DNA from: Rubrivivax sp.
GTDB lineage: Bacteria > Pseudomonadota > Gammaproteobacteria > Burkholderiales > Burkholderiaceae
NCBI GenBank assembly: GCA_016790225.1
Contig: JAEUOZ010000054.1
Location: forward strand, 1-64,000
Direction of reading: 5' to 3'
Length of the DNA stretch: 64,000 nucleotides
The notes below the pieces were generated by a model, which was given only the letters and a program-made list of their open reading frames with translations, ran no database searches and was not told where the DNA came from. The position numbers and the translations under genes were made by a program. Positions 6,277 through 28,546 of the stretch are shown one piece after another; the first letter of the stretch is position 1; every line of letters begins with the position of its first letter.

Positions 6277-8820
6277 TTACTCCTCTTCGTCGGTTTCGAT
6301 GACTTTTTCGATGCCGGCCAGTCGGGTGCCGTCATCGAGGGAAATCAGGGTCACGCCCTGGGCGGAACGCCCGGTCTCGCGGACCTGCTGGACCTTGGTG
6401 CGGATCATGACGCCACCGGTGGAGATCAGCATCACCTCGTCCTCGGGCTGCACCAGGACGGCCCCCACCACCTTGCCATTGCGCTCCGAGGTGGCGATGG
6501 CGATCATCCCCTTGGTGCCGCGGCCGTGCTTCGTGTACTCGGCGATGGGTGTGCGCTTGCCGAAGCCGTTCTCGGTGGCCGTCAGCACGTTGAACTCCTC
6601 GCCCTGGGCGACCAGCATGCAGATCACGCTCTGCTCGTCCTCGAGCATCATGCCGCGCACGCCGCGGGCCGTGCGGCCCATGGGGCGCACGTCACCCTCC
6701 TCGAAGCGCACGGCCTTGCCGGCGTCGGAGAAGAGCATCACGTCGCAGGCGCCGTCGGTGATGGAAACGCCGATCAGGTAGTCGCCCTCGTCCAGGGCGA
6801 CGGCGATGATGCCGGCCTTGCGCGGGTTGGAGAACTCGGTCAGCGGGGTCTTCTTCACCGTGCCCATGGCGGTGGCCATGAACACGAAATGGTTCTCGTC
6901 GAACTCCTTGACCGGCAGCACGGCGGTGATCTTCTCGTTCTCCTCCAGCGGGAAGAGATTCACGATGGGCTTGCCGCGGGAGCCGCGGGTGCCCTCGGGC
7001 ACTTCGTAGACCTTCAGCCAATAGACCCGGCCGCGGCTAGAGAAGCACAGGATGTAGTCGTGGGTGTTGGCGATGAACAGCCGGTCCACGAAATCGTCTT
7101 CCTTGATGTCGGCCGCCTTCTTGCCGCGGCCGCCCCGCTTCTGGGTCCGGTAGTCGTCCAGGGGCTGGCGCTTGACGTAGCCGGTGTGGGACAGGGTGAC
7201 GACCATGTCCTCGCGGGCGATCAGGTCCTCCAGGTTGATGTCCGCCGTCTGCAGGACGATCTCGGAGCGCCGCTTGTCGCCGAACTGGGTCTTGATGGCG
7301 GCCAGCTCGTCGCCGATGATGCGGGTGATGCGTTCCGGCCGTGCCAGGATGTCCAGCAGGTCGGCGATCTGCTCCATGACTTCCTTGTACTCGGCGACGA
7401 TCTTGTCCTGCTCGAGTCCGGTGAGTCGCTGCAGGCGCAGTTCCAGGATGGCCTGGGCCTGGGCGTCGGAAAGCAGGTAGCCGCGCCGGGACAGCCCGAA
7501 CTCGGGGGCCAGCCCCTCGGGGCGCGAGGCCTCGGCGGATGCCCGCGCCAGCATCTCCTCGACAAGCGTCGAGCGCCAGGTGCGGGCCATCATCTCCCGC
7601 TTCGCGTCGGCCGGCGTGGGGGCCGCCTTGATCAGGGCGATGATCTCGTCCACGTTCGACAGGGCCACGGCGAGGCCTTCCAGCAGATGCCCACGCTCCC
7701 GGGCCTTGCGCAGCTCGAACACCGTGCGCCGGGTCACCACCTCGCGGCGGTGGGACAGGAAGCATTCCAGCATCTGCTTCAGGTTCAGAAGCTGGGGGCG
7801 GCCGTCCACCAGGGCCACCATGTTCATGCCGAAGGTGTCCTGGAGCTGGGTCTGCTTGTAGAGGTTGTTCAGCACCACCTCGGGCACTTCGCCGCGCTTG
7901 AGCTCGATGACCACGCGCATCCCGGACTTGTCGCTCTCGTCCTGGATGTGGCTGATGCCCTCGATCTTCTTCTCGTGCACGAGCTCGGCGATGCGCTCGA
8001 GCAGCGTCTTCTTGTTGACCTGGTAGGGGATCTCGTCGACGATGATCGATTGCCGCGCGCCCTTGTCGATGTCCTCGAAGTGGCACTTGGCGCGCATGAT
8101 CACCTTGCCGCGCCCGGTGCGATAACCCTCGCGCACCCCGTTCAGGCCATAGATGATGCCGGCGGTGGGAAAGTCGGGTGCCGGGATGATCTCCATCAGC
8201 TCCTCGATGCTGGCCTCGGGCGCCTTCAGCAGGTGCAGGCAGGCATCGACCACCTCGTTGAGGTTGTGCGGCGGGATGTTCGTGGCCATGCCCACGGCAA
8301 TGCCTGCCGAACCGTTGACCAGCAGGTTGGGCAGGCGGGTCGGCAGGACCAGCGGCTCCTTCTCGCTGCCGTCGTAGTTGGGCCCGAAATCGACCGTCTC
8401 CTTGTCGATGTCGGCCAGCATCTCGTGCGCGATCTTGGCCAGGCGGATCTCGGTGTAGCGCATGGCCGCGGCGTTGTCGCCGTCCACGCTGCCGAAGTTG
8501 CCCTGGCCATCCACCAGCATGTGGCGCAGCGAAAAGTCCTGCGCCATGCGCACGATCGTGTCGTAGACCGCCGTGTCGCCATGAGGGTGGTACTTGCCGA
8601 TCACATCGCCGACGATGCGCGCACTTTTCTTGTAGGGGCGGTTCCAGTCGTTGTTGAGCTCGTGCATCGCGAACAGCACGCGACGGTGGACCGGCTTCAG
8701 GCCGTCACGCGCGTCGGGCAGGGCCCGGCCCACGATGACGCTCATCGCATAGTCGAGATACGAGCGCCGCATCTCCTCTTCGAGGCTGATGGGCAGCGTT
8801 TCTTTCGCGAACTGGGACAT
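6277..8820 (-). CDS. gyrA: DNA gyrase subunit A
   Basis: An 847-residue type II topoisomerase subunit that breaks and rejoins DNA during negative supercoiling. The breakage-reunion domain contains [17 protein letters not shown] and the active-site tyrosine in [10 protein letters not shown]. The C-terminal wrapping domain carries the GyrA box QKRGGRGK, which separates gyrase from ParC. At the position of E. coli Ser83 there is threonine, and the equivalent of Asp87 is retained. The start at 8820 ([16 protein letters not shown]) gives the standard N-terminus. It is the first gene of the minus-strand block and is divergent from the ompA-like gene. Confidence 0.97.
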
Positions 8821-9092
8821 GCACCGTGGCCGCGCGGTGGGGCGGCAAGAAGCGCCCGAATGGGCTGGCAGCCCGAGCGACAAGGGATTCTATGCGGCGC
8901 TCCGATGTCGCTATGGCGCAACATGGCCAATAGGCAAAAGCTGGCAGATCGCCAAAATGGGGCCCAGACGAAGCGCTATGGCACAATGAATTCGTCAACG
9001 GTATCTACTCGCGCCAGCGGGTATTTGCCCGAACATCTCGCCCCGTTTTGGACGTCACGCAGGCAACTGCGGCTTTCCTCGAGAGGAGAATC
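8821..9092. promoter_or_regulatory. Divergent intergenic region between gyrA and the ompA-like gene
   Basis: This 272-bp gap must contain the promoters of both the leftward gyrA block and the rightward ompA-like gene. It is locally more AT-rich around 8925-9000. No textbook -35/-10 pair could be assigned with confidence. A good ribosome-binding site, GAGAGGAG at 9081-9088, precedes the ATG at 9093. No gene is seen in it. Confidence 0.5.
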
Positions 9093-9794
9093 ATGAAGAA
9101 ACTCAACAAGGTGGCAGCGCTGTTTGCAACAGCAGCGCTGGCCGCCCCGATGGTCGCGTCTGCGCAGGCGCAGGCTCCGGCCAGGACCGTCGACAACTGG
9201 CGTGCGACGGATGGCACCGTCTGGCGCAACGGCACGAATGAGCTCTGCTGGCGCGATGCCACCTGGACCCCGGCCACGGCCGCTCCTCGTTGCGATGGCG
9301 CTCCGCCGCCCCCGCCGCCGCCCCCGCCCCCGCCGCCTCCTCCCCCGCCGCCCCCGCCGCCCCCGCCTCCGCGCGCGGCCCCCCCGGCTCCTCCGCCCCC
9401 GCGTCCGGCTCCGCCGCCGCCGCCCGCTCCGGTGAGCGAGAAGGTCACGTTCGCCGCTGACGCATTCTTCGATTCGGGCCGGTCCGTGCTGAAGCCTGAG
9501 GCTCAAGCCAAGCTGAACGATCTGGTCGACAAGACCAAGGGCGTCAACCTCGAGGTCATCATCGCCGTCGGTCACACCGATTCGGACGGCAGCGACGCCT
9601 CGAACCAGAAGCTGTCGATCGCTCGCGCCGAGTCGGTCAAGGCCTATCTGGTCAGCAAGGGCATCGAGAAGAACCGTGTCTACACGGAAGGCAAGGGCGA
9701 GAAGTCGCCTGTGGCCGACAACAAGACCAAGGAAGGCAAGGCGAAGAACCGCCGCGTCGAGGTCGAGGTCGTCGGTACCCGCACCCGTCGCTGA
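9093..9794 (+). CDS. OmpA-family peptidoglycan-binding protein with long polyproline linker
   Basis: A 233-residue exported protein. Residues 1-25 are a signal peptide (KKLNKVAALFATAALAAPM). A short region with two cysteines (about residues 28-69) follows, then a linker with 23 consecutive prolines (codons 9303-9371) and further Pro/Ala. Residues 118-230 are an OmpA C-terminal domain: FDSGRSVLKPEA, GHTDSDGSDASNQKLSIARA with the aspartate and arginine that bind diaminopimelate, and a final KNRRVEVEV. There is no beta-barrel, so it probably tethers the outer membrane or periplasm to peptidoglycan rather than forming a pore. It sits upstream of ubiG as in Burkholderiales and is followed by a strong terminator. 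Confidence 0.9.
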   Translation: MKKLNKVAALFATAALAAPMVASAQAQAPARTVDNWRATDGTVWRNGTNELCWRDATWTPATAAPRCDGAPPPPPPPPPPPPPPPPPPPPPPPRAAPPAPPPPRPAPPPPPAPVSEKVTFAADAFFDSGRSVLKPEAQAKLNDLVDKTKGVNLEVIIAVGHTDSDGSDASNQKLSIARAESVKAYLVSKGIEKNRVYTEGKGEKSPVADNKTKEGKAKNRRVEVEVVGTRTRR

Positions 9795-9868
9795 ACGGTC
9801 GATGGGGCCGCAGTCCCCTCGGGGCCTGCTGCTCCCATCGGTGGGAGCCCACGGGTCCCGCCAAGAAC

Positions 9869-9897
9869 AAACCCCGCCGCGGCGGGGTTTTTCGTTT
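9869..9897 (+). terminator. Rho-independent terminator after the ompA-like gene
   Basis: ACCCCGCC and GGCGGGGT form an 8-bp stem around a GC loop (9871-9888), followed by TTTTCGTTT. It lies 75 nt after the stop codon and separates this gene from ubiG. The rest of the gap to 9998 shows no gene. Confidence 0.85.
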
Positions 9898-9998
9898 CTG
9901 GGCAGGCTCACTGTTCGCCACCGAACCGACCCGTCAGGCCATTCGCTGCTGCGAGCGATCCCGCCATCAGCCTTGCCGCCTCGCCCCAGGATGCCTTC

Positions 9999-10703
9999 AT
10001 GAGCACGAACGTCGATACCCAGGAACTGGCCAAGTTCAGCGCGCTGGCACACCGGTGGTGGGACCGCGAGAGCGAGTTCCGCCCGCTGCACGAGATCAAT
10101 CCGCTGCGGCTGGAGTGGATCGATAGCCTCGCAGCCTTGGCCGGCAAGCGGGTGCTGGACGTGGGCTGTGGCGGCGGCATCCTGGCGGAGGCCATGGCTG
10201 CCCGTGCAAGCAGCGTGTTAGGCATCGACCTTGCCACGAAGCCGCTGGGTGTGGCGCGTCTGCATGCGCTGGAGACGGGCGTACCGAATGTCGACTATCG
10301 CGAAGTGGCGGTCGAAGCCCTGGCGGCGGAGCAACCGGGCAGCTTCGAAGTCGTCACCTGCATGGAGATGTTAGAGCACGTGCCGGACCCTGCCTCCGTG
10401 GTCCAGGCCTGCAGCCGGCTGGTCAAGCCGGGCGGCTGGGTGTTTTTCTCCACGCTCAACCGCAACCCCAAGTCCTACCTGTTTGCGATCATCGGCGCGG
10501 AGTATGTTTTGAAGCTGCTGCCGCGCGGCACGCACGACCATGCTCGATTCATCAAGCCCAGTGAGTTGGCGCGTTGGTGCCGTGATGCTGTATTGGATTG
10601 GCAGGCCACCAAGGGTATGGAATACAACCCGCTCAAGCGGCGCTACTCCTTGAGCGAGGACACGAGCGTCAACTACCTCGTGGCCTGCCGGCGCGCGACC
10701 TGA
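9999..10703 (+). CDS. ubiG: Ubiquinone biosynthesis O-methyltransferase
   Basis: A 234-residue SAM-dependent methyltransferase performing both O-methylations in ubiquinone synthesis. The family N-terminus [20 protein letters not shown] is followed by INPLRLEWI, the SAM-binding motif [13 protein letters not shown] at about residue 51, [11 protein letters not shown] and [13 protein letters not shown]. All are diagnostic of UbiG rather than other class I methyltransferases. The stop overlaps the gph start in a TGATG arrangement, indicating coupled translation. Confidence 0.96.
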
Positions 10704-11368
10704 TGCAGGCACCCGTGCGCCTGGTGCTCTTCGATCTGGACGGCACCCTGATCGACAGCGCCCCGGATCTGGCAGGTGCTGCCAATGAGTTGCGCGCCAG
10801 CCATGGGCTCGGCCCGCTGCCATATGCCGAGCTTCGGCCGATGGTGGGCTCTGGCGCGCGCGGCATGGTGCGGCAGGCTTTCGACATCGGGCCCGGCGAA
10901 GCACGGTACGAGGCCCTGCGCGTGTCGTTCCTGGATGCCTACGAAGCGCGGATGCTTCGGTTGACCCGCATCTTTGACGAGATGCAGCCGGTCCTTCTCG
11001 CGCTGGAGGCGCGCGGCATGCGCTGGGGCGTCGTCACCAACAAGGCACAGCGCTTTGCGGCGCCGATCACGCAGGCGCTGGGCATCGCACAGCGTGCTGC
11101 GGTCGTGATTGCGGGGGACAGCACGCCGTACACCAAGCCGCACCCGGAGCCGCTGCACGAAGCGGCACGCCGCGCCGGCTGTGCATCGGCCGATGCCGTC
11201 TACGTCGGTGACGACCCCAGGGACATCCAGGCCGGCCGTGCGGCGGGCATGCGCACGGCTGCTGCGGCCTGGGGCTACCTGGGCCTGGGCGAGCCGGTCG
11301 AAGCCTGGGGTGCCGATATCGTGCTGCCGCAGCCCGCCCGGCTCTTGAACTGGCTGCAACTGGCCTAA
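10703..11368 (+). CDS. gph: Phosphoglycolate phosphatase, HAD superfamily
   Basis: A 221-residue HAD hydrolase removing phosphate from 2-phosphoglycolate. Motif I is DLDGTLIDS with the nucleophilic aspartate, motif II is VVTNK, motif III is KPHPEP and motif IV is GDDPRDIQAGRAAGM. The ATG at 10703 shares one base with the ubiG stop; longer upstream frames overlap ubiG and are not used. The ubiG-gph pair is conserved in betaproteobacteria, sometimes annotated as MupP/Gph-like, so the exact substrate may be another small phosphomonoester. Confidence 0.88.
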   Translation: MQAPVRLVLFDLDGTLIDSAPDLAGAANELRASHGLGPLPYAELRPMVGSGARGMVRQAFDIGPGEARYEALRVSFLDAYEARMLRLTRIFDEMQPVLLALEARGMRWGVVTNKAQRFAAPITQALGIAQRAAVVIAGDSTPYTKPHPEPLHEAARRAGCASADAVYVGDDPRDIQAGRAAGMRTAAAAWGYLGLGEPVEAWGADIVLPQPARLLNWLQLA

Positions 11369-11381
11369 ACTCCAGGGCTTG

Positions 11382-11755
11382 GGGGCCGACCTGGCTTCGA
11401 CGTGGGTGCGGAGTCGGATCAGGGCATGCCGAGCGCCAGAACAGCTCGTAAATCCAGCTGGAAACAAGTAACTGCGAACGACGAACGTTTCGCCCTCGCC
11501 GCTTAACACCGGTGAGCCTCTCAACGGTTGGCCGATGGGCCGGGCTGAAGGTCGCAAGACCCTGAGCTGAGAGGTCAGTCACATTGGCTGGCGCCTGACC
11601 GGGTCACTCGGTCAGGAGCGAGATTCAGTGACTGGCGGACCGGATAGCGTGCTGCTGCGCGATCCGGGCCGTGAGATCCAAATCAGACAGCTACGCATGT
11701 AGAACTGGTCGGCAATGGCTTGCGGACGGGGGTTCGATTCCCCCCGGCTCCACCA
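11382..11755 (+). ncRNA. ssrA: Transfer-messenger RNA (tmRNA)
   Basis: The 5' end GGGGCCGACCTGGCTTCGAC and the 3' end GGTTCGATTCCCCCCGGCTC followed by CACCA form the tRNA-like domain. GGGGCCG at 11382-11388 pairs with CGGCTCC at 11745-11751, and CCA is encoded. The tag reading frame at 11474-11506 reads GCG AAC GAC GAA CGT TTC GCC CTC GCC GCT TAA, giving ANDERFALAA. This is a typical betaproteobacterial degradation tag. It rescues stalled ribosomes with SmpB. Confidence 0.97.
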
Positions 11756-11762
11756 GTACGAC

Positions 11763-11794
11763 GGGCCCAGAGACCTCTCTGGGCCCTTCTCTTT
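11763..11794 (+). terminator. Rho-independent terminator after ssrA
   Basis: GGGCCCAGAG and its complement CTCTGGGCCC (11763-11786, short loop) are followed by TTCTCTTT. It starts 8 nt after the encoded CCA of the tmRNA. The following stretch to 12039 shows no convincing gene. Confidence 0.85.
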
Positions 11795-12039
11795 GGGCTG
11801 GTCTCCAAGGGAAGCGGCGGCTGGCCTGTTGACCACGGTGCGCCTGACGAGGCCCCGGAAGGCCAGCCAGGGGACCGTGTCTCGCTCCGTGCTCTGCCAG
11901 CCTGTTGACCAACACCAGGCGAGGCCGAGGAATCATGCGGGTTTCAGTGCGGCGAGTGCAGGTCGCAGACGGGTCGGCAGCCCGCACTCCACAGGCCCTT
12001 TCCCGGCCGGAACCTGGTCCGTTCCGGTACCCTGCATCC

Positions 12040-12387
12040 ATGTACACCGCCACGTTCACCTTCTCCAGGCGCCAGTTCGACGACGCGTTCCACGCGCTGG
12101 ATCAGGTGATCGCGGCGACTGCGAAGTCGCTTCCCGGGTACCTGGGCGAGGAGAGCTGGGAGAACGCCGCTTCAGGGCTGATCTCCAACGTCTACTACTG
12201 GGAGTCGATGGAGGCGCTGCGTGCATTGATCGAACACCCAGCCCACCAAGCCGCCAAGCGCGAGCAGTCCAGGTGGCTGGCGGGGTATCAGGTCGTGATT
12301 GCCCAGGTCGTTGGCAGCTACGGGGATGGCAAGATTGACCATCCGCTGGCGCAAGCCGGCTCCAAGAACCATCAACCCGGGGACTGA
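12040..12387 (+). CDS. Small ABM-fold (antibiotic biosynthesis monooxygenase-like) protein
   Basis: A 115-residue protein starting at the ATG at 12040 (MYTATFTFSRRQFDDAFHAL). The pattern of a beta strand ending in TFTF, a helix, PGYLGEESWE, NVYYWESMEALRAL and HPAHQAAKREQSRWLAGYQV is that of dimeric alpha+beta barrel ABM-domain proteins. In this family ESWE and the YYW-type strand line the active site, and the helix with HPxHQ follows. Function is unknown; ABM proteins include quinone monooxygenases and haem-degrading enzymes. It is followed 23 nt later by a LysE-type exporter, which may be co-transcribed. Confidence 0.7.
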   Translation: MYTATFTFSRRQFDDAFHALDQVIAATAKSLPGYLGEESWENAASGLISNVYYWESMEALRALIEHPAHQAAKREQSRWLAGYQVVIAQVVGSYGDGKIDHPLAQAGSKNHQPGD

Positions 12388-12410
12388 CTTCCAGACCCAG
12401 GACGAGCGCC

Positions 12411-13028
12411 ATGTCACTCATCGCCTTCTTCATCGCGGCCACGGTACTGGCCATCACGCCCGGCCCAGGCATTGCCTACGTCGTGGCCCGCACGGTGGCA
12501 GGAGGGCGAGCCGAGGGCCTGGCCTCATGCATCGGCACGGGCCTCGGCGGCATGCTGCACGTGTTGGCAGCGGCCGTCGGACTTTCGATCCTGGTGGCGC
12601 AATCGGCGATCGCCTTCACCCTGTTGAAGTACCTGGGTGCTGCGTACCTCGTCTACCTGGGCGTGCGGATGCTGATGCGCGCTCAGGCCGATGACGCCCT
12701 GCAGCCGGTGTCAGCCCAGGGCGCGCGCCGTGCGCTGGTCGAGGGCATCGTCGTGGAGGCGCTGAATGTGAAGACGGCACTCTTCTTCCTGGCCTTCCTG
12801 CCGCAGTTCGTGGTCCCGACCGAGCCGCTGGTGCCGCAACTGGTGCTGCTGGGCAGCATCTGTGTGGCACTGAACACGCTGGTGGACCTGATCGCCGTGT
12901 TGGCGGCTCACCGGCTGCTGGATTCCGGTGCCGCCCGGGCTGCGCGAGCCCGGTTGATGACGCGGGTGTCGGGGGTCACCATGATCGGGCTGGGTGTCTT
13001 CCTCGCGACGGCAAGACGGCAAACCTGA
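12411..13028 (+). CDS. LysE/RhtB family amino-acid exporter
   Basis: A 205-residue inner-membrane protein with about five or six hydrophobic segments. The N-terminal motif ITPGPGIAYVVART corresponds to the TPGP signature of LysE/RhtB exporters, and LLKYLGAAYLVYLGVRML is the conserved second signature. EALNVKTALFFLAFLPQFV in the middle is also family-typical. Such proteins export amino acids or their analogues; the substrate cannot be predicted. It ends the short plus-strand run that begins after ssrA. Confidence 0.88.
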   Translation: MSLIAFFIAATVLAITPGPGIAYVVARTVAGGRAEGLASCIGTGLGGMLHVLAAAVGLSILVAQSAIAFTLLKYLGAAYLVYLGVRMLMRAQADDALQPVSAQGARRALVEGIVVEALNVKTALFFLAFLPQFVVPTEPLVPQLVLLGSICVALNTLVDLIAVLAAHRLLDSGAARAARARLMTRVSGVTMIGLGVFLATARRQT

Positions 13029-13375
13029 GTGGGGTGCGCGAGCCGCAGAACTGCTCAAGCTGCATGCCCCAAGCCTCCGGAAACCACCCCAACAGCGCCG
13101 ACAGCCCGAGCGGCAGGCGCCCGTCACGCAGCGCAGCCTCGATCATGGGCGGCCTCCACCTCTACGATCGTGGCAGCAGGTCTGCGCCAACGCCGTCAAC
13201 CACGGGCAGCCATGCCACCACATCCCAAGGGTCCGCATGGGGCCAACCCGGCAAGACGGCGCCAAGTCCACCCAGGACTGGGCGCCAGCTGATGGCGTCG
13301 ATCGACAATCCGATTCGCCGTTTCGAGCGCTCCGCCCTCGGTGCTTGCCTCGAAGCGGGACCGCGGCGCCAGCCC
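13029..13375. other. Gene-free gap between convergent lysE-type gene and rfbC
   Basis: This 347-bp stretch separates two genes that end toward each other. Several open frames cross it, but none has an internal start with a ribosome-binding site or a recognisable motif. No hairpin with a T-run was found. It may be degraded coding sequence, but nothing identifiable remains. Confidence 0.4.
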
Positions 13376-17529: not shown

Positions 17530-18366
17530 TCAGCGCAGGCGTGCCAGCAGGGCATCAAATCCCGGGTAGTCGCCACGCTGCATCGAGACCTTCTGGCTCA
17601 AGCCCGGCCGCTGCTCGCCGGCGCTGAGCGCGGCCAGGAAGCGGGGGCCATCGGTCACCCAGCTGCCGCCCATCAGCGTGACGCCGCGCTGGAACAAGGC
17701 GTCGGGCAGGCAGCTGGCGGTCGGGCCGATCAGCGCAATCGAGCTCGCGCCCGCGCAGGGTTCGAGCATGCGGTCCAGTGAGTCGTTCATCAGCAGCGTT
17801 CCGGTGGCCAGGACCTTGTTGCACGCGCGCAGCGCCTGCGCATCCAGGGTCACCCGCCAGCGGCCGTGCTCGGCCACCAGCTCGGGCTTCAGCTCCACCA
17901 CGGTGAGCTGCGCGCCGCTGTCCAGCACGCGCTGCAGCAAGGGCGTGAACAGGCCGATCATGCCGATGTGGTCTTCAGGGCGGGCATCCAGGGCGCCCAT
18001 CGAGTCGGCGCTCCTGGCCGGCGCCCAGCCCGCGCGGTCGAAGCACCATCGGCTCAGCGCGTTGACGGCAGCCAGGCCGATGGCCTTGCGTGCGCCTTCG
18101 GGCTCCAGCCACTGCTGCGCGATCTCCAGCGGCGGCCGGCCAGCCAGGCCGAAGTGACGGTCGGCCTGCCGCAGCTGCGCCAGCGTGTCGTCCAGCAGCA
18201 CGTAGCTCAGGCCCACCGTGCCGTCGGCCAGCTCCAGCGCGCAGAACTCCCCGCGCGTCGCGCCGGGCGCCGGGTCCGGCGGCAGGTGCAGCGCCTTCAC
18301 GCAGGGCAGCGCGGCCAGGGTTTCCAGCCGCTGCAGTCGCGACAGCGTCTCCTCAGCCACGCCCAT
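17530..18366 (-). CDS. DUF364 (putative heavy-metal chelation domain) protein
   Basis: A 278-residue cytoplasmic protein resembling DUF4213/DUF364 proteins. It has an N-terminal domain to about residue 95, then AIGLAAVNALSRW, HIGMIGLFTPLL, NKVLATGTLLMNDSLDRML and IALIGPTASCLPDALFQRGVTLMGG in family order. The known structure of the family suggested a metal-chelating site, but no biochemical role is established. AAGGAGGA lies 4 nt before the ATG at 18366. The start overlaps the VWA gene by 14 nt, so it is the third gene of the ravA/viaA-like operon beside a tungsten oxidoreductase. A role in metal handling is an inference. Confidence 0.75.
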   Translation of the reverse strand: MGVAEETLSRLQRLETLAALPCVKALHLPPDPAPGATRGEFCALELADGTVGLSYVLLDDTLAQLRQADRHFGLAGRPPLEIAQQWLEPEGARKAIGLAAVNALSRWCFDRAGWAPARSADSMGALDARPEDHIGMIGLFTPLLQRVLDSGAQLTVVELKPELVAEHGRWRVTLDAQALRACNKVLATGTLLMNDSLDRMLEPCAGASSIALIGPTASCLPDALFQRGVTLMGGSWVTDGPRFLAALSAGEQRPGLSQKVSMQRGDYPGFDALLARLR

Positions 18367-19921
18367 GCGATCCTCCTTCGGGCAGCTGGGGCCTCGCATC
18401 CGGGGCGCCGCTGCCACCGCGGTGCCGGGCCGCACGCGGCGAGAGCGCGTTGGGGAAGTACAGCGCCGTCAGGCTCATGCTGTGCACGGGCGAGAAGGTG
18501 CGCGTATCCACACCGTACTCTCCCATCGCAAAGCGGCGCCACTCGCGTTCCCAGTGGATGTGATCGCAGACTTCCAGCAGGCCCATGGTCTCGCGGTCGC
18601 CGACCAGCACGCCCTGCACGCGAAGGCCCAGGCTGGCACGCGCCTCGTCCAGCCGCTCCAGCGTGTGCGGCACGCAGCCGAACTCGCCGTCGCTGACGAT
18701 CAGCAGATCGGCGCTGCGCCAGGCGGCGGTGTGCACGGCCTCGATCGCCTGCTCGATCGGCGTCTGGATATCGGTGCCGCCGTCGAAGGACTGGGCCATC
18801 AGCTCGAGCAGCGTGCGCAGCCCCTCGGCGCCCCGGTGCAGATCCTGCTGGATCAGCTCGCCCGGGCCGCCGAAGGCGATCAGCCGGCAGGCGCGCCCGG
18901 CCTGGTGGGCACTGCGCAGCGCCGCGATGACGACCGCCTTGGCGATCTTCTCCGGCGCGCCGCGCATCGATCCGGAGGTGTCCAGGCAGACGATCAGCGG
19001 CCCCTGCTCCAGGCGCTGGGGCTCGTCGTCCTGCCTATCGGCCTGCGCGGCTGCCGCTGGATCGATGCGCCAGTCGTTCAGCACCGCCTCGGTCTGCCAG
19101 GACAGCAGCCGGCCTTCGGCATGGCGCGCACGCCAGAGTTTCTTCAGCACCGGATGGCGCAGCATCACCGCTTCGCTGCTGAGCATGCGTTCCGGCTGCG
19201 CCGACCAGCGCACGCCAGTGATCTCGCCGGGCGCATCCGGCAGACGGGTCTGCACCAGGCGCAGCGGCGAGCGGCGCGGGCGGTCGGCCTGCGGCCTGTG
19301 CGTCCGCGCCGGCAGGGCCGTGGTGCTGCGCTCCGCGCGGCCCAGGCGGCGGATCAGCTCCGCCAGCGCCGGCAGCAGCGCCAGACGATCCGCTGCTTGC
19401 TGGGCCTCGCTCCAGCCGCGCGAGCGCAGCTGGCCTTGCAGGTTGTCCCAGGAAAGATCCCGGAAATCGCCCAGGCCCAGCAGCAGGCTCAGGTCCTGAT
19501 CCAGCCCCTGCGTCTGGATCTGCCAGGCCTCGCGGAATTCGCGTGTGACGGTGTCGATGGCCTGCGAGCGAGACTGTCTCGGCTGCAGATCGATCAAGCG
19601 ATCCAGGTGCCACAAGAGCGTGCGCAGCAGCTGCTCGGCCAGCGCCGGCGCCTGCCGACACAGGGCCGGCAACTGCAGCGTGGCGACCACTTCCCGCAGC
19701 GGGCCGCTGGCATCCGGCACGCCGAAATCCGCGCTGGCCGCCGGCAGCTGTGCCTGGTCCAGCGCCCGCAGCCACAGGCCTGCATCGCGCAGGCGCTCGG
19801 CGGCGGTGCCGGCCGCGGTGATCACGCCGGGCAACCAGGTGCCGCGCGGCAGGGCTTCCAGCCGGTCATAGGGTGCGTCCAGCGCGCCCGCGCAGGGGCC
19901 TTGGCGGTCGCCGAGCGTCAA
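18353..19921 (-). CDS. VWA-domain protein, ViaA-like partner of the MoxR ATPase
   Basis: A protein of about 522 residues with an all-alpha N-terminal region and a C-terminal von Willebrand A domain. The MIDAS motif is LDTSGSMRG, followed by IAFGGPGELIQ, SFDGGTDIQTPI (threonine ligand) and LIVSDGEFG. This order matches ViaA/CoxE-type proteins that partner RavA-like AAA+ ATPases. The start is placed at a TTG at 19921, which overlaps the ATPase stop. The frame is open further upstream inside that gene, so the start is the least certain point. RavA-ViaA systems in enterobacteria have been linked to respiratory and Fe-S enzymes; here the neighbour is an aldehyde oxidoreductase. Confidence 0.8.
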   Translation of the reverse strand: MTLGDRQGPCAGALDAPYDRLEALPRGTWLPGVITAAGTAAERLRDAGLWLRALDQAQLPAASADFGVPDASGPLREVVATLQLPALCRQAPALAEQLLRTLLWHLDRLIDLQPRQSRSQAIDTVTREFREAWQIQTQGLDQDLSLLLGLGDFRDLSWDNLQGQLRSRGWSEAQQAADRLALLPALAELIRRLGRAERSTTALPARTHRPQADRPRRSPLRLVQTRLPDAPGEITGVRWSAQPERMLSSEAVMLRHPVLKKLWRARHAEGRLLSWQTEAVLNDWRIDPAAAAQADRQDDEPQRLEQGPLIVCLDTSGSMRGAPEKIAKAVVIAALRSAHQAGRACRLIAFGGPGELIQQDLHRGAEGLRTLLELMAQSFDGGTDIQTPIEQAIEAVHTAAWRSADLLIVSDGEFGCVPHTLERLDEARASLGLRVQGVLVGDRETMGLLEVCDHIHWEREWRRFAMGEYGVDTRTFSPVHSMSLTALYFPNALSPRAARHRGGSGAPDARPQLPEGGSHGRG

Positions 19922-21324
19922 GCCACCGCCTCCGACCACTGCACCGGCTGCGGGCGGTCTTCGTTCGAAGAGGCCTCCTGCGGCAAGGACGCAAACGCGG
20001 CACGCAGCTGCTGCAGGCGCCCAGCGAGCGCATCCAGCACGTCCAGCGTCTGGCGGTAGGCCTCCAGCCAGGCCCTGCTGAATTCGGGCGGCAGCCACAG
20101 GCGGCCGGCCAGGCGAGCGGCAAGCTCATCGTGGCGGCGGACGTTGTCTGCCCGTTGCAGCGCCACATGCGTCAGCAGCTCATCCAGCTGTGCCAGGCGC
20201 GCGGCGATGTGCACCGGGCTGTAGTGACGGCGCAGCCGATCCTCCAGCCGCGCCGACACCACGCGCAGCAGCCCTTCGCCCGCCTCGCTGCGACCGGCGC
20301 CCGAGATGGCGCGCGCCAGGGCCATCTTGCCGGCGCTGTCGTCGCCGTCCTCGGCGCCGGCCGTGCTCTCGATCTCGAACTGCTTTTCGAAGGCTTCGAC
20401 CGCGCGCGTGAGCCAGGGCGCCAGCTGCGGCACCGCCTGCAGGCAGTCCTCCCGGAACCAGCGGGCCAGCGGCTCCACCTCCTGCGGTGTGGGGCTGGCG
20501 ACAAAGGGCGCGGTCCACAGATCGATCAGGTCGGCCTGCGCGCGGCCTTCTGTCGCGGCGGCCATGCGCAGCAGGTCCATCCACTGGCGCCAGCGGCGAT
20601 CGGACAGGCGGATCTCGCGCGATGTCAACCACTGCCGCAGCGCGGCGCAGCCGGCCAGCAGATCGTCCGACAGGTCGACGGCAGCCGCCTCGTGCGCCCA
20701 GGCCTGCAGGTCTTGCGTGCGCAAGGAGGCCTCTGCAGGGGCGGGCGCATCGCCCAGGCGCAGCAGCTCGGCGAAAGCGGCGTCGCTGACGGGGCCGACC
20801 GGAATGCGCACCAGGAAGCGATCGTGAAAGGCCTGCAGCGCTTCGTCCGCCGGCACCTCGTTGCTGGCGGCGACGACACTGATCAGCGGCACGGCGCACC
20901 GGCCGCTGCCGTTGTCGAATTCACGCTCGTTCAGCAGCGTCAGCAGCGCATTCAGGATGGCCGAGTTGGCCTTGAAGACCTCGTCCAGGAAGGCGATTCC
21001 GGCCGTGGGCAGGAAGCCCTGGACCAGCCGCTCGTAGCGGTCGTCCTCCAGCGCCTTCAGCGACAGCGGGCCGAACAGCTCTTCGGGCGTGGAAAAGCGC
21101 GTCAGCAAGCGTTCAAAATAAGCGGCCCCGGCAAAGCAGCGGTGCAGGCGCCGCGCGAGCTCGCTCTTGGCCGTGCCGGGCGGGCCGATGAGCAGCGCGT
21201 GCTGGCCGGCCAGCGCCGTGAGCAGCACCAGACGCGCCTGCACGCCGCGCTCCAGCAGGCCTTGGTGCAGGCTGTCCAGGGCCTGCTGCAGGCCCGCGCG
21301 GGACGTGAAGGAATCGACAGTCAT
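19918..21324 (-). CDS. MoxR-family AAA+ ATPase, RavA-like
   Basis: A 468-residue ATPase. Walker A is GPPGTAKSELARRL at about residue 47, Walker B is IAFLDEVFKAN, and AASNEVPADEALQAFHDRF contains sensor 1 and the arginine finger region. FSTPEELFGPLSLKALE is typical of the RavA subgroup. The C-terminal part, about residues 270-468, is long and helical as in RavA and may contact the client or ViaA. It leads a three-gene minus-strand operon and is divergent from the aldehyde oxidoreductase operon. Chaperone-like maturation of that enzyme is plausible but not shown by sequence. Confidence 0.85.
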   Translation of the reverse strand: MTVDSFTSRAGLQQALDSLHQGLLERGVQARLVLLTALAGQHALLIGPPGTAKSELARRLHRCFAGAAYFERLLTRFSTPEELFGPLSLKALEDDRYERLVQGFLPTAGIAFLDEVFKANSAILNALLTLLNEREFDNGSGRCAVPLISVVAASNEVPADEALQAFHDRFLVRIPVGPVSDAAFAELLRLGDAPAPAEASLRTQDLQAWAHEAAAVDLSDDLLAGCAALRQWLTSREIRLSDRRWRQWMDLLRMAAATEGRAQADLIDLWTAPFVASPTPQEVEPLARWFREDCLQAVPQLAPWLTRAVEAFEKQFEIESTAGAEDGDDSAGKMALARAISGAGRSEAGEGLLRVVSARLEDRLRRHYSPVHIAARLAQLDELLTHVALQRADNVRRHDELAARLAGRLWLPPEFSRAWLEAYRQTLDVLDALAGRLQQLRAAFASLPQEASSNEDRPQPVQWSEAVA

Positions 21325-21694
21325 GACGGATGTGTGGCCGAAGAGTCGAGGGGCGTGCAGCGCGCGGACGGCGCGCCGCGCCGGATGCGACTCTAGAGCA
21401 TCGGCGCTGGCTGACTGTGGGTGCGGCGGAACGCAAGGGGGCCTGACCTGGACGTCCTGCAGGCGTCACGATGGCCGGCGGTCCAGCCATTGGCCCAGCG
21501 GGCGGGTTGGTCTTGAGCCGGGCCTGTGCCAAGTTGGCGCAGGCTCTTTCCTGAAGCCGCGCGGCCATCGGGACAACCCTAGGTAGAGCCCAGCATAAGT
21601 CCGCACGATGATGCATGCTGGATCAGGGGGCTGATGCTCGGCTCCTGTCCGTTCTGGATCCGTCACCCCCACCAGAAAACTGCGAAAGGCCGCC
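21325..21694. promoter_or_regulatory. Divergent control region between the ravA-like and aor operons
   Basis: This 370-bp gap must carry both promoters. It contains the imperfect palindrome TGTGCCAAGTTGGCGCA at 21525-21541, symmetric at 7 of 8 arm positions, which could be an operator. GAAAGG precedes the ATG at 21695. No sigma-54 -24/-12 pair with correct GG/GC spacing was found, and no gene is recognisable. Confidence 0.45.
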
Positions 21695-22168
21695 ATGCAG
21701 AAGACGCTCCACATCAACCCGGACAAGTGCACCGGCTGTCTCCAATGCGAGATGGCCTGCTCATTCGAGAACTACGGCACCTTCGCCACGGCGCGCTCGC
21801 GCATCAAGGTGTTCGATTTCCACGCCACCGGACGCAAGGTGCCCTACACCTGCACGCAATGCGATGAGGCCTGGTGCCTGCACGCCTGCCCGGTGGAAGC
21901 GATCACGGTGGACAAGCTCACCGGCGCCAAGATCGTCAACGAGACCACCTGCGTCGGCTGCAAGGTCTGCACGATCAGCTGCCCCTTCGGCACCGTGAAC
22001 TACGTGCAGGAGACCGGCAAGGTGCAGAAGTGCGATCTGTGCGGCGGTGACCCCGCCTGCGCCACGGCCTGCCCCACCGGCGCCATCACCTACGTGGATG
22101 CCAACTGGACGGGCCTGGGCAAGATGCAGGCCTGGGCCGACAAGCTCGGCAACCAACCCGCAGCCTAA
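21695..22168 (+). CDS. aorA: Four-[4Fe-4S] ferredoxin subunit of aldehyde oxidoreductase (AorA-like)
   Basis: A 157-residue polyferredoxin with sixteen cysteines in four groups: CTGCLQCEMAC, CTQCDEAWCLHAC, CVGCKVCTISC and CDLCGGDPACATAC. This is enough for four [4Fe-4S] clusters. It resembles the HycB/DmsB-type electron-transfer subunits and the AorA protein of the denitrifier Aromatoleum, which carries electrons between the tungsten subunit and the FAD subunit. It is the first gene of the operon, 24 nt before aorB. The symbol is by analogy with that system. Confidence 0.85.
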   Translation: MQKTLHINPDKCTGCLQCEMACSFENYGTFATARSRIKVFDFHATGRKVPYTCTQCDEAWCLHACPVEAITVDKLTGAKIVNETTCVGCKVCTISCPFGTVNYVQETGKVQKCDLCGGDPACATACPTGAITYVDANWTGLGKMQAWADKLGNQPAA

Positions 22169-22192
22169 CTCACAGACTCAGGAGCACTTCAC

Positions 22193-24040
22193 ATGTCTTG
22201 GGCAGGAAAAATCCTTCGCGTCAACCTCAGCACCGGCACCGTCAGCTCGGAGCCGCTCAACATGGACTGGGCGCGTGCCTATCTCGGCTCACGCGGGCTG
22301 GCCAGCAAATACCTGGTCGAGGAGATCAGCCCCTCGGTCGATCCGCTGTCGGCCGACAACAAGATCATCTGGGCCACCGGGCCGCTCACCGGCACCATGG
22401 CCTCCACCGGCGGCCGCTACACGGTGGTCACCAAGGGCCCGCTCACGGGCGCCATCGCCTGCTCCAACTCCGGCGGCCACTGGGGTGCGGAGCTGAAGAT
22501 GGCCGGCTGGGACATGGTCATCTTCGAGGGCAAGTCACCCAAGCCCGTCTACCTGTCGGTTTCAGATGACGTGGCCGAGCTCAAGGACGCGTCGCACCTT
22601 TGGGGCAAGACCGTCTGGGAGACCGAAGAGATCATCAAGAAGAGCCACCAGGATCCGCTGACGCGCATTTCCAGCATCGGCCTGGCGGGCGAGAACCAGG
22701 TGCTGTTTGCCGCCGTGGTGAACGATCTGCACCGCGCCGCCGGCCGCTCGGGCGTGGGCGCGGTGATGGGCAGCAAGAACCTCAAGGCGATCGCCGTGCG
22801 CGGCACCAAGGGCGTGGGCAACATCGCCGACCCCAAGGAGTTCATGAAGGTCACCTTCGAGAAGAAGAAGATCCTGGCCGAGAACGGCGTCACCGGCCAG
22901 GGCCTGCCAACCTACGGCACCCAGGTGCTGATGAACGTGATCAACGAAGTGGGCGCGCTGCCCACCCGCAATCACCGCGACAGCCAGTTCGAAGGCGCCA
23001 AGGACATCTCGGCCGAAGCCATGGCCACGCCGCGCAAGACCGATGGCAAGAAGCCCCTGGTGACCAACCAGGCCTGCTTCGGCTGCACCATCGCCTGCGG
23101 CCGCATCCAGAAGATCGACCAGAACCACTTCACGGTGCAGAACAAGCCGCAGTACTGGGGCGCCAGCGGCGGCCTGGAGTACGAGGCGGCCTGGGCGCTG
23201 GGCGCGGCCAATGGCGTGAACGATCTGGAAGCGCTGCAGTACGCCAACGTGCTGTGCAACGAGCACGGCATGGATCCCATCAGCTTCGGCGCCACCGTCG
23301 GCGCCGTGATGGAGCTCTACGAGATGGGCGTGCTCACGAAGGAGCAGCTGGGCACGGATGCGCCGTTCGGCAGCGCGCAGGCGCTGGCGCACTTTGCCGA
23401 GATCACGGCCAAGGGTGAGGGCTTCGGCAAGGAGATCGGCCAGGGCTCGGCGCGCCTGTGCGCCAAGTATGGCCACCCGGAACTGAGCATGACCGTCAAG
23501 AGCCAGGAGTTCCCGGCCTACGACGCGCGCGGCATCCAGGGCATGGGCCTGACCTACGCCACCAGCAACCGCGGCGCCTGCCACCTGCGCAGCTACACCG
23601 TGGCTTCCGAAGTGCTGGGCATCCCGGTGAAGACCGATCCGCTGGTGGCCGACGGCAAGCCGGAACTGGTGATCGCCTTCCAGGATGCGACCGCGGCCTT
23701 CGATTCCGCCGGCATCTGCATCTTCACCAGCTTTGCCTGGGGCCTGGCCGACGTCGCGCCGCAGGTGGCGGCCGCCTGCGGGCCGGAGTTCACGCTGGAG
23801 AACATGGCCAAGATCGGCGAGCGGATCTGGAACATGGAGCGCGACTTCAACAACAAGGCCGGCTTCACCGCCAAGGACGACACGCTGCCTCCGCGCCTGC
23901 TGAACGAAGCGGCCAAGACCGGCCCCGCCAAGGGCCTGACCAGCAAGCTGCCCGAGATGCTGCCCAAGTACTACGCCGCGCGCGGCTGGGACGAAGGTGG
24001 CAACCTCAAGGCCGATACGCGCGAGCGTCTGGGCCTCTGA
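22193..24040 (+). CDS. aorB: Tungsten-type aldehyde:ferredoxin oxidoreductase catalytic subunit
   Basis: A 615-residue AOR-family protein. It starts WAGKILRVNLSTGTV, then GGRYTVVTKGPLTGAIACSNSGG (N-terminal domain binding the bis-pterin cofactor) and HRAAGRSGVGAVMGSKNLKA. The cluster-binding cysteines are in CFGCTIAC and a later cysteine in SAGICIF. EFPAYDARGIQGMGLTYATSNRGAC follows the family pattern. The reaction is reversible oxidation of aldehydes to acids, using tungsten or molybdenum coordinated by two pterins plus one [4Fe-4S] cluster. CAGGAG precedes the ATG. The related BamB subunit of benzoyl-CoA reductase is an alternative, but the FAD and ferredoxin partners fit AorABC better. Confidence 0.9.
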   Translation: MSWAGKILRVNLSTGTVSSEPLNMDWARAYLGSRGLASKYLVEEISPSVDPLSADNKIIWATGPLTGTMASTGGRYTVVTKGPLTGAIACSNSGGHWGAELKMAGWDMVIFEGKSPKPVYLSVSDDVAELKDASHLWGKTVWETEEIIKKSHQDPLTRISSIGLAGENQVLFAAVVNDLHRAAGRSGVGAVMGSKNLKAIAVRGTKGVGNIADPKEFMKVTFEKKKILAENGVTGQGLPTYGTQVLMNVINEVGALPTRNHRDSQFEGAKDISAEAMATPRKTDGKKPLVTNQACFGCTIACGRIQKIDQNHFTVQNKPQYWGASGGLEYEAAWALGAANGVNDLEALQYANVLCNEHGMDPISFGATVGAVMELYEMGVLTKEQLGTDAPFGSAQALAHFAEITAKGEGFGKEIGQGSARLCAKYGHPELSMTVKSQEFPAYDARGIQGMGLTYATSNRGACHLRSYTVASEVLGIPVKTDPLVADGKPELVIAFQDATAAFDSAGICIFTSFAWGLADVAPQVAAACGPEFTLENMAKIGERIWNMERDFNNKAGFTAKDDTLPPRLLNEAAKTGPAKGLTSKLPEMLPKYYAARGWDEGGNLKADTRERLGL

Positions 24041-24139
24041 CGCTGCAGTTGAGCGAACCGGGCGCGGGCCGACGCCGCGCCCCCTGACCAGACGGACAGC
24101 GCCTTGATGGCGCTGTCCTTTCTTCGAGGAGGCACCTTC

Positions 24140-25480
24140 GTGCAACACGTGATCCTGGGAGCCGGCCCTGCCGGCGTGATCGCCGCCGAGACCATCCGCA
24201 AGTACGCGCCCGACGACAGCATCATCCTGGTGGGTGACGAGCGCGAGGAGCCCTACTCGCGCATGGCCATTCCCTACCTGCTGATCGGCAACATCAAGGA
24301 GCAGGGCACCTACCTGCGCCACGGCGCCGATCACTACGCGAAGCTGCGCATCGAGGTGCGCCGGGCGCAGGCCCGGCAGGTGGATGTCACTCGCCGCTGC
24401 GTGGTGCTGCATGACGGTACCGCGCTGCCCTTCGACCGTCTGCTGATCGCCACCGGCTCCTCGCCCGCGAGCCCGCCGATCCCGGGCATCGATTCGCCCA
24501 ACGTGCATGCCTGCTGGACGCTGGCAGATGCACGCAACATCATGCAGAAGGCCACCCAGGGTGCGCGCGTGCTGCAGATGGGCGCGGGCTTCATCGGCTG
24601 CATCATCATGGAATCGCTGGCCGCGCGCGGGGTGGAACTGACGGTCGTGGAGATGGGCGACCGCATGGTGCCGCGCATGATGGGGCCCACGGCGGGCACG
24701 ATGATCCGCGACTGGTGCGAATCCAAGGGCGTGCGCGTGTTCACCGGCGCGCGCGTCGAGTCCATCGAACCGGCCAACCCGCCAGCCAGCGGCGGCCTGC
24801 TGGCCAAGGTGGCGGCAGCGGTGGGCCTGGGCGGCGACGACAAGCCCGCCGGCCCGCTGAAGGTGCGCCTGTCCACCGGGCAGACGCTGGAGACCGATCT
24901 GGTGATCAGCGCCACCGGTGTGCGGCCCAACATCGGTTTCCTGGAGAACTCCGAGATCAGGTGCCTGGTGGGTGTGCTGACCGACGAGCACATGCAGACC
25001 ACCGTGCCCGGCATCTATGCCGCGGGTGACTGTGCTGAAGCGTTTGACAAGGTCAGCGGCAAGACCATCGTCAGCGCCATCCAGCCCAACGCAGCGGACC
25101 AGGCCGTCGTGGCCGCACAGAACATGGTCGGGCGCAAGGCCGAGCTGCGCGGCGTCACGCAGATCAACGTGCTGGACACGCTGGGGCTGATCTCGTCGAG
25201 CTTCGGCAACTGGCAGGGCGTGCCGGGCGGCGAGCATGTGGAGCTCACCGATGCCGCATCCGGCCGTCACCTGAGCCTGCAGTTCTTCGGCGATGTCATG
25301 GTGGGTTGCAACAGCGTGGGCTGGACCGAGCACGTGGGCGTGATGCGCGGCCTCGTCGAAGGGCAGGTGAAGCTGGGGCCCTGGAAGGACAAGCTGATGA
25401 AGGATCCGACGCTGCTGATGGAAGCCTACCTCGCCGCGGCCCAGGGTCAGGGCGAACGCGGCCACGTGGCTGCGCGCTGA
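24140..25480 (+). CDS. aorC: FAD-dependent NAD(P)H oxidoreductase subunit (AorC-like)
   Basis: A 446-residue two-dinucleotide-binding flavoprotein. It has the FAD motif ILGAGPAGVIAAETI at the N-terminus, LLIATGSSPASPP, a second Rossmann motif (MGAGFIGCIIMESLA) for NAD(P)H, and VPGIYAAGDCAEAFD for the FAD ribityl contact. The GTG at 24140 is preferred because GAGGAGG lies 6-8 nt upstream; an in-frame ATG at 24104 has none. It is 99 nt after aorB. It likely passes electrons between AorA clusters and NAD, as in the Aromatoleum enzyme. Confidence 0.87.
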   Translation: MQHVILGAGPAGVIAAETIRKYAPDDSIILVGDEREEPYSRMAIPYLLIGNIKEQGTYLRHGADHYAKLRIEVRRAQARQVDVTRRCVVLHDGTALPFDRLLIATGSSPASPPIPGIDSPNVHACWTLADARNIMQKATQGARVLQMGAGFIGCIIMESLAARGVELTVVEMGDRMVPRMMGPTAGTMIRDWCESKGVRVFTGARVESIEPANPPASGGLLAKVAAAVGLGGDDKPAGPLKVRLSTGQTLETDLVISATGVRPNIGFLENSEIRCLVGVLTDEHMQTTVPGIYAAGDCAEAFDKVSGKTIVSAIQPNAADQAVVAAQNMVGRKAELRGVTQINVLDTLGLISSSFGNWQGVPGGEHVELTDAASGRHLSLQFFGDVMVGCNSVGWTEHVGVMRGLVEGQVKLGPWKDKLMKDPTLLMEAYLAAAQGQGERGHVAAR

Positions 25481-25499
25481 GCGGGCCGGGCGTCGCCGC

Positions 25500-25754
25500 A
25501 TGAAGATCGAGTTCAAGCTCTACGCAAGCCTCGGCGACTACCTGCCGGCGGCGGTGCGTCACGAGAACCGCATGCCCCTGGAGGTGCGCGAGAACGCCCC
25601 CATCAGCGAGATCATCGAACCCTTCGGCCTGCCGCAGAAGATGGTCCACCTGGTGCTGGTCAACGGCGTCTACGTGCCCCCGGAGCAGCGCATGACGCAC
25701 CAGCTCAAGGAAGGCGACGTCCTGGCCATCTGGCCCCCCATCGCGGGTGGGTGA
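25500..25754 (+). CDS. MoaD/ThiS-family small sulfur-carrier protein
   Basis: An 84-residue beta-grasp protein ending in PIAGG, the C-terminal di-glycine that is adenylated and thiocarboxylated in MoaD/ThiS proteins. KIEFKLYASLGDYLP, VHLVLVNGVYVPPEQR and LKEGDVLAIWPP follow the ubiquitin-like strands. Dedicated MoaD-like genes are common in AOR operons, where they are thought to serve synthesis of the tungstopterin cofactor. It starts 19 nt after aorC and ends the operon, followed directly by a double-hairpin repeat pair. Confidence 0.88.
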   Translation: MKIEFKLYASLGDYLPAAVRHENRMPLEVRENAPISEIIEPFGLPQKMVHLVLVNGVYVPPEQRMTHQLKEGDVLAIWPPIAGG

Positions 25755-28246: not shown

Positions 28247-28546
28247 ATGCAAGCCTTCTATCCCGCTGCCTTTGACCGCGAGGCCGGTTGCACCGAACGC
28301 GAGTGGCTGATGTGGCTGCCTGCAGCGCTGGGCGAGGTGCCCGTGCGCCAGAGTCCGGGCCGCGCCGAGGTCGATCTGGACGAGGGCCGCCTGGACCTGA
28401 GCTGGCAGGTCTGCTCCCCCCGCGTCATCGCCCTCGTGCGACTGCCCCGCCTGGCCGTCCAGTTCCGCTTCACCAACGTCCCCGACGCCCGCCGCCACGC
28501 CTTCATGAAACGCTTCGACCTCCACATGCAACGGGGAGGGGGCTGA
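28247..28546 (+). CDS. Small hypothetical protein (99 aa)
   Basis: A 99-residue cytoplasmic protein with no recognised domain. The pattern EREWLMWLPAALGE, then alternating strands (AEVDLDEGRLDLSWQV, IALVRLPRLAVQFRFTNV) and a basic C-terminal helix suggests a compact alpha/beta fold. It follows the exported protein at 18 nt on the same strand and ends just before a second pair of 80-bp hairpin repeats. Function unknown. Confidence 0.6.
   Translation: MQAFYPAAFDREAGCTEREWLMWLPAALGEVPVRQSPGRAEVDLDEGRLDLSWQVCSPRVIALVRLPRLAVQFRFTNVPDARRHAFMKRFDLHMQRGGG

Follow-up and report, generated by a model that had tools for sequence, protein, structure and literature searches.

Why should a MoxR ATPase and a VWA protein be encoded alongside a tungsten enzyme? 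The question is raised by positions 17,530 to 25,754 of a 64,000-nucleotide stretch, the whole of which is called the window here, from a Rubrivivax sp. assembly (GCA_016790225.1, contig JAEUOZ010000054.1). On the minus strand of the window lie genes for a RavA-type AAA+ ATPase of the MoxR group (19918..21324), a VWA protein of ViaA/CoxE type (18353..19921) and a DUF364/DUF4213 protein (17530..18366), divergent from a plus-strand operon for the three subunits of an aldehyde oxidoreductase (AOR), AorABC, and a small carrier protein. A preliminary description of this DNA had proposed that the leftward genes form a dedicated maturation machine for the tungsten enzyme. In sampled relatives the MoxR-VWA pair is almost never kept without AOR, which suggests that the motor pair services that enzyme. 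We narrowly favour the view that the three leftward genes constitute an accessory module of Burkholderiales, facultative and dependent on AOR, which would carry out ATP-driven remodelling or (re)activation of AOR or its cofactor.

Co-occurrence of the pair with AOR

Searches of 200 genomes from a single family (that of genome G001) gave hits for MoxR in 28 genomes, for the VWA protein in 27, for AorB-type AOR in 59 and for DUF364 in 28. The AOR count was reduced to 58 by discounting a paralogue of 31% identity (G112), fragments in G013 and G171 being kept, and G101, with a MoxR match of 42% identity over 304 query residues and no VWA match, was not scored as having the pair. The pair is then found in 26 of 58 genomes with AOR compared to 1 of 142 without (Fisher test, 1.6e-15); put the other way round, AOR is present in 26 of the 27 pair-bearing genomes. 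Thirteen of the 27 VWA matches span one or two stop codons; these are probably gene ends, since the nine that were fetched show open frames of at least 490 residues. In six genomes (G022, G063, G065, G096, G119 and G138) pair and AOR share a contig at a separation of more than 100 kb, lying at 1.18 and 0.19 Mb in G063, at 0.09 and 3.30 Mb in G096 and at 1.51 and 3.08 Mb in G119, so that the co-occurrence is not mere linkage.

Identity of GyrA to that of the window did not resolve kinship and a GyrA tree was used instead. The window GyrA (6277-8883, minus strand) is 75-81% identical to all 150 GyrA sequences listed, about equally distant from each, and sits on a long branch, while AorB of the window and AorB of G001 share 91% identity despite the distant GyrA. 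From the 150 sequences listed, 100 family genomes were placed on the tree, with or without the window: all 22 with a MoxR hit (G101 counting as without the pair), all 26 with AOR only and, ranked by GyrA score, the first 52 of the others. The pair requires 14 changes on this tree and AOR 21. A model in which the two evolve dependently is preferred over an independent one (likelihood ratio test (LRT) statistic 27.1, four degrees of freedom, p 1.9e-5, a chi-square value that is rough since two fitted rates lie at their bounds; LRT 27.7 with the window included). The dependence stems from the pair being lost when AOR is absent, not from extra gain when AOR is present: the fitted loss rate is at its upper bound without AOR and at its lower bound with it. 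The coupling of the pair to AOR that had been proposed for this locus is thus upheld, in that MoxR and VWA occur together, accompany AOR and show correlated evolution with it.

Might pair and AOR simply descend together as an inherited neighbourhood of one lineage, with no functional link? One clade of the tree, around G198, G138 and G057, does have the pair more often, and a stricter sign test on independent pairs, confined to supported branches, falls short of significance: its nine pairs, mostly four to six concordant and none or one opposed, tend towards correlation but are too few (in either direction of the test, median p 0.06). Within that clade, however, 14 genomes have both, one has AOR only, none has the pair only and 25 have neither (in the rest of the tree, window included, the corresponding figures are 7, 25, 1 and 28), and the correlated model is preferred. 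The 14 and 21 changes on the tree count against co-descent too, and the far-apart chromosomal positions speak against pure hitch-hiking; co-descent is distinctly improbable. As a candidate in its own right, a lineage marker only was set aside: it is weakened by the correlated-evolution tests, though the independent-pairs test taken alone is not significant.

A second alternative would make AOR a correlate and not a client, the pair serving a different enzyme or complex, perhaps a respiratory one of flavo-Fe-S type, that is common in the lifestyle of AOR bearers. The clients of RavA-ViaA described in the available text of the literature on Escherichia coli are respiratory, the system being associated with Fe-S enzymes and Nuo in one paper (PMC3893208) and with fumarate reductase in another (PMC7159879). 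Lifestyle effects do exist in our sample, since RuBisCO shows correlated evolution with AOR (LRT 18.2) and a weaker correlation with the pair (LRT 12.0). RuBisCO was scored as present in the 72 genomes with a match of at least 378 bits, 90 of the 200 exceeding the Pfam cut-off; it occurs in 39 of 58 AOR genomes and in 33 of 142 others, a correlation that hints at a common lifestyle. Nevertheless AOR predicts the pair in both strata, with 19 of 39 against 1 of 33 among RuBisCO-positive genomes and 7 of 19 against 0 of 109 among RuBisCO-negative ones, and inside the AOR-positive genomes RuBisCO and pair are unlinked (p 0.42). RuBisCO, the one control trait used, was accordingly rejected as the explanatory one: it correlates with AOR and has no link to the pair once AOR is fixed. 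Nor do the neighbours of pairs remote from AOR point to an alternative metalloenzyme, the few recurrent ones in 20 regions being helicase, histidine kinase, TRAP transporter and cytochrome b561-like genes (named by eye). An unrecognised client elsewhere is therefore unlikely, though it keeps appreciable weight.

Neighbourhood of AOR in related loci

The 80 closest AOR loci were surveyed, those with named titles belonging to Burkholderiales and 40 having both 10-kb flanks complete. MoxR, VWA, DUF364 and accessory genes were counted by tblastn or genome searches; the simple gene caller misses or mislabels some genes. MoxR lies inside the fetched flanks of 15 of the 80 loci, and of 9 of the 40 with complete flanks. 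The preliminary description had held that its proposal would fall if homologous AOR operons usually lacked these genes; the absence of MoxR nearby from 65 of 80 loci, or 31 of the 40 with full flanks, goes half way to that outcome. Over whole genomes, MoxR was found in 37 of 50 searched, nearly all of them the most similar among the 75 remaining AOR-locus genomes, and in all five of those selected for having the pair near AOR.

Where the pair is close to AOR its placement varies: upstream on the opposite strand in seven loci (L009, L012, L029, L030, L038, L048, L079), upstream on the same strand in three (L007, L039, L040) and downstream on the opposite strand in five (L011, L013, L022, L025, L049). 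At L034 DUF364 stands at the locus edge with the pair just beyond (L229); L001 and L003 likewise have DUF364 at the edge, and match positions suggest that the pair follows there too. TupA-like genes were found in 40 of the 80 loci, TupB-like in 38, MoeA in 13 and DUF364 in 9; among the 15 loci with the pair near AOR the first three number 9, 10 and 4, respectively. The names TupA and TupB are our own, Pfam giving a PBP domain for the former and no match for the latter. A gene of sigma-54-activator type is present in 16 of the 80 loci, none of these 16 having MoxR in its flanks, and a simple consensus scan of 79 regions upstream of aorA, that of the window included, gave no sigma-54 promoter, an outcome of no evidential weight.

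Several of our observations weigh against the pair as a helper of AOR. Some of the AOR calls are fragments (G013, G171), and one genome (G068) has the pair and no AOR match, although its assembly is in multiple contigs and AOR may lie on a missing one. Of 58 AOR genomes, 32 are without the pair, so that AOR can evidently be maintained without it. Genomes having both place them within 10 kb of each other in only 1 of 26 cases (G001) and on separate contigs in 19 of 26, and the short divergent gap of the window type (<400 bp) recurs only in L012 and L079 among the 80 loci. The tree represents one gene and half of the family sample, and the fitted rate of pair gain is not raised by AOR, being 1.5 with it and 8.7 without; the sign test given above belongs here too. 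Finally, in a sample of 299 genomes from the phylum, four genomes (G468, G443, G305 and G256) carry AORs with 66-74% identity to that of the window, a range below that of full-length single-copy AORs in the family sample, which starts at 77%, and these four have no MoxR match at E 1e-30. Full-length MoxR orthologues in the phylum sample are confined to G001, G096 and G119, all of them also members of the family sample; the remaining matches cover chiefly the AAA domain, as does that of RavA.

The frequent occurrence of AOR without the pair, or remote from it, points to a facultative helper and not to a general maturation machine. A general AOR maturation factor is ruled out by the 32 genomes, and the dedicated machine envisaged in the preliminary description is not supported for AOR in general, in view of these, of the 65 loci and of the four distant AOR genomes.

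Identity of the MoxR-VWA pair

The MoxR ATPase (468 residues) matches bpMoxR best in Pfam, along with AAA_5 and AAA_lid_8. Its AAA+ core is intact, with Walker A GPPGTAKSE and Walker B FLDEV, and in an alignment of 42 sequences GPPGTAKS and LDE are invariant. The VWA protein (about 522 residues) matches VWA_2 and VWA_CoxE (PF05762; 37.4 bits against a cut-off of 26.4), the latter being matched by all 23 aligned sequences with E up to 0.01, and the residues of its metal ion-dependent adhesion site (MIDAS), D-x-S-G-S, T and D, are conserved. A MoxR ATPase adjoining a VWA protein with MIDAS places the two in the broad MoxR-VWA class.

Assignment to RavA-ViaA proper is another matter. The ATPase scores 225.3 bits over residues 17-269 with the RavA equivalog of NCBIfam (NF010054; curated cut-off 681) and the VWA protein 132.1 bits with that of ViaA (NF008230; cut-off 500). 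No match to a LARA domain was found in the ATPase, the profile match stopping at 326 (RavA 335). The predicted model of the ATPase has the RavA fold, with RavA-like C-terminal helices, and its structural alignment reaches both C-termini while covering 340 of 481 RavA residues; the part left uncovered is presumably LARA, going by the domain limits of RavA. The label 'RavA-like' given earlier is apt for fold and relationship but not as to identity, the curated cut-offs being far from reached and LARA unmatched: as judged from its sequence, the ATPase is a LARA-less relative of RavA, not RavA itself. The window pair differs from the RavA-ViaA of E. coli further in being linked to AOR and sometimes accompanied by DUF364.

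NorQ-NorD offers another parallel, being an AAA+/VWA pair that matures a metalloenzyme. A Foldseek search with the VWA model returned VWA-domain matches, a NorQD chain among them, and left the N-terminal helical part without assignment, which has no bearing either way; whole-length similarity is low (TM-score about 0.25) and the client is different.

The bpMoxR match also invites comparison with conflict or defence systems built on MoxR-VWA, which occur with beta-propeller or other partners, as do distant RavA/ViaA-like pairs that have a defence-like context in G417 and G269, both from the phylum sample. For the window such a function is extremely improbable: none of the neighbours identified is a propeller-partner gene, and the pair shows dependence on AOR. 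A defence system was rejected as a candidate, PADLOC giving no match at E 0.001 to the MoxR, VWA or DUF364 protein of the window. The two distant pairs, at L221 (G417, 6597-11869) and L222 (G269, 6768-13196), lie beside a sigma-54 regulator of CARF-RtcR type with a HEPN (RiboL-PSP) protein, or beside a ResIII-type helicase with HsdM/HsdS-like genes, these last being recognised by eye.

The DUF364 protein

The third protein of the left operon (about 278 residues) matches DUF364 (PF04016) with 95.8 bits against a cut-off of 23, as well as DUF4213 (PF13938), and finds 3npg and 3l5o in the PDB by sequence. Its inclusion in the set is only partly justified. DUF364 is present in 17 of 26 genomes with AOR and pair and in none of the 32 with AOR only, and it tracks the pair (LRT 34.9) more than AOR (LRT 14.2). 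The copies next to the pair, nine in number, all belong to a single group of 16 sequences, with moderate support (84). On the other side, of the 17 genomes having all three, only G001, G057 and G173 place DUF364 next to the pair; 11 of the 142 genomes lacking AOR carry it as well, and it has other lineages elsewhere. That DUF364 is an independent tenant of the operon, unrelated to AOR, consequently remains a substantial possibility, if somewhat short of an even one. One separate DUF364 lineage of five sequences (L111, L113, L118, L105 and L116) lies beside nicotinate phosphoribosyltransferase-, nitroreductase- and phasin-like genes, named by eye and not all present at every locus.

Available text on the family proposes, from structure and gene contexts only, that DUF364 makes a flavin- or pterin-like metal ligand, those contexts including tungstate and molybdate genes (PMC2954201). 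For the present module a role in supplying or processing a small-molecule or metal ligand is doubtful.

Proposed role of the module

The dependence is asymmetric, the pair needing AOR and AOR not needing the pair, which fits a helper for yield, stability or recovery rather than an obligatory assembly step. From the distribution over genomes, AOR is slightly more likely than not to be the pair's client. The LARA-less RavA-type MoxR ring would be the AAA+ motor, and the VWA partner would dock it onto AorABC or a late assembly intermediate; by spending ATP on remodelling AorABC, the ring would allow the tungsten-bispterin or Fe-S/flavin centres to be completed or restored. DUF364, where present, would contribute the ligand or its processing. 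That the act of the pair is active-site completion or repair, and not plain complex assembly, is a tentative suggestion on the less likely side. Oxygen exposure may be the reason for retention of the pair, a proposal of our own.

The closest functional parallel is the CO dehydrogenase system of Oligotropha, in which, according to the available text, CoxD, CoxE and CoxF complete the [CuSMoO2] site of the folded enzyme and mutants in coxE or coxF fail to grow with CO (PMC4240915). As in the window, a MoxR ATPase and a VWA_CoxE-type protein are joined by a third protein of about 280 residues, and the system is linked to a single enzyme of the molybdenum or tungsten class. CoxF has an XdhC Rossmann domain and DUF364 a Rossmann-like domain in a solved relative, but the window's third protein is of PF04016/PF13938 and not XdhC type, the enzyme is AOR and many AOR genomes have no such module. 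The failure of the coxE and coxF mutants on CO makes the Cox helpers obligatory, unlike the pair described here. A bolder reading, which we regard as rather improbable, would make MoxR-VWA-DUF364 a dedicated, CoxDEF-like tungsten-enzyme activase for the AOR family, with DUF364 preparing or holding the tungsten-pterin ligand while the motor opens AorB for loading, reloading or repair; the module would then be retained only by lineages with a need for it, possibly those living aerobically.

The genome evidence puts forward a specific, testable helper candidate for placement of tungsten bis-pterin into AOR and for upkeep of AOR in oxygen-exposed hosts. If correct, this would add one more defined metalloenzyme to the clients of the RavA-ViaA class and give DUF364 its first testable role. 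In the open-access literature we found no paper linking MoxR with tungsten plus VWA, with Burkholderiales or with aldehyde oxidoreductase, and none on an AAA+ ATPase with the tungsten cofactor, which is no proof of absence; the available main text of a 2026 classification of tungsten oxidoreductases (PMC13328260) makes no mention of MoxR, VWA or DUF364.

Gene boundaries, the AOR operon and small proteins

All seven genes listed in the preliminary description were recovered at their positions. The TTG at 19921, overlapping the MoxR stop (TTGA), is the likely start of the VWA gene judging by the sequence, and the listed open reading frame start at 20098 is for that reason probably too far upstream; most VWA homologues align only from about residue 66-76 of the listed frame. 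The likely start of DUF364 is the ATG at 18366, which stands behind AAGGAGGA and overlaps the final 14 bases of the VWA gene. With these starts the three minus-strand genes overlap as had been claimed, and the 370 bp said to separate the divergent operons are found as 21325..21694, bounded by the first codons of MoxR and aorA.

The rightward operon, on the plus strand, is AorABC plus a MoaD-like carrier, as Pfam and PDB comparisons agree. It comprises aorA (21695..22168; ferredoxin subunit with 4Fe-4S domains), aorB (22193..24040; catalytic subunit with AFOR_N and AFOR_C), aorC (24104..25480; FAD/NAD subunit with Pyr_redox_2), whose real start may be a few codons downstream of the listed TTG, and aorD (25500..25754), a MoaD/ThiS-like carrier with a GG end that matches ThiS/Ub-Mut7C. 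PDB entry 8C0Z is the best match of all three enzyme subunits (chains C, A and E for AorA, AorB and AorC, respectively), AorB being aligned across all 615 residues with 1047 bits; this entry is presumably the Aromatoleum enzyme, the PDB tables naming the molecules only.

The gene order aorA-B-C followed by MoaD-like aorD is shared with Aromatoleum aromaticum EbN1. Its AOR was purified with three subunits and with W but no Mo, and aorD and aorE of its operon are proposed, MoaD-like, maturation factors, as the available text reports (PMC6365974). EbN1 differs in that no MoxR, VWA or DUF364 genes are named alongside in the available text of two papers (PMC6365974, PMC12096430), the word ATPase being absent from the first and MoxR from the second.

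A family of small proteins (99-101 residues) ending in GGG and without a Pfam match was found by tblastn in 74 of the 80 AOR loci, often directly after aorD, and may possibly be the counterpart of aorE. The window copy (28247..28546, plus strand; 99 residues) lies about 2.5 kb past aorD, and another is encoded at L001:13472-13777.

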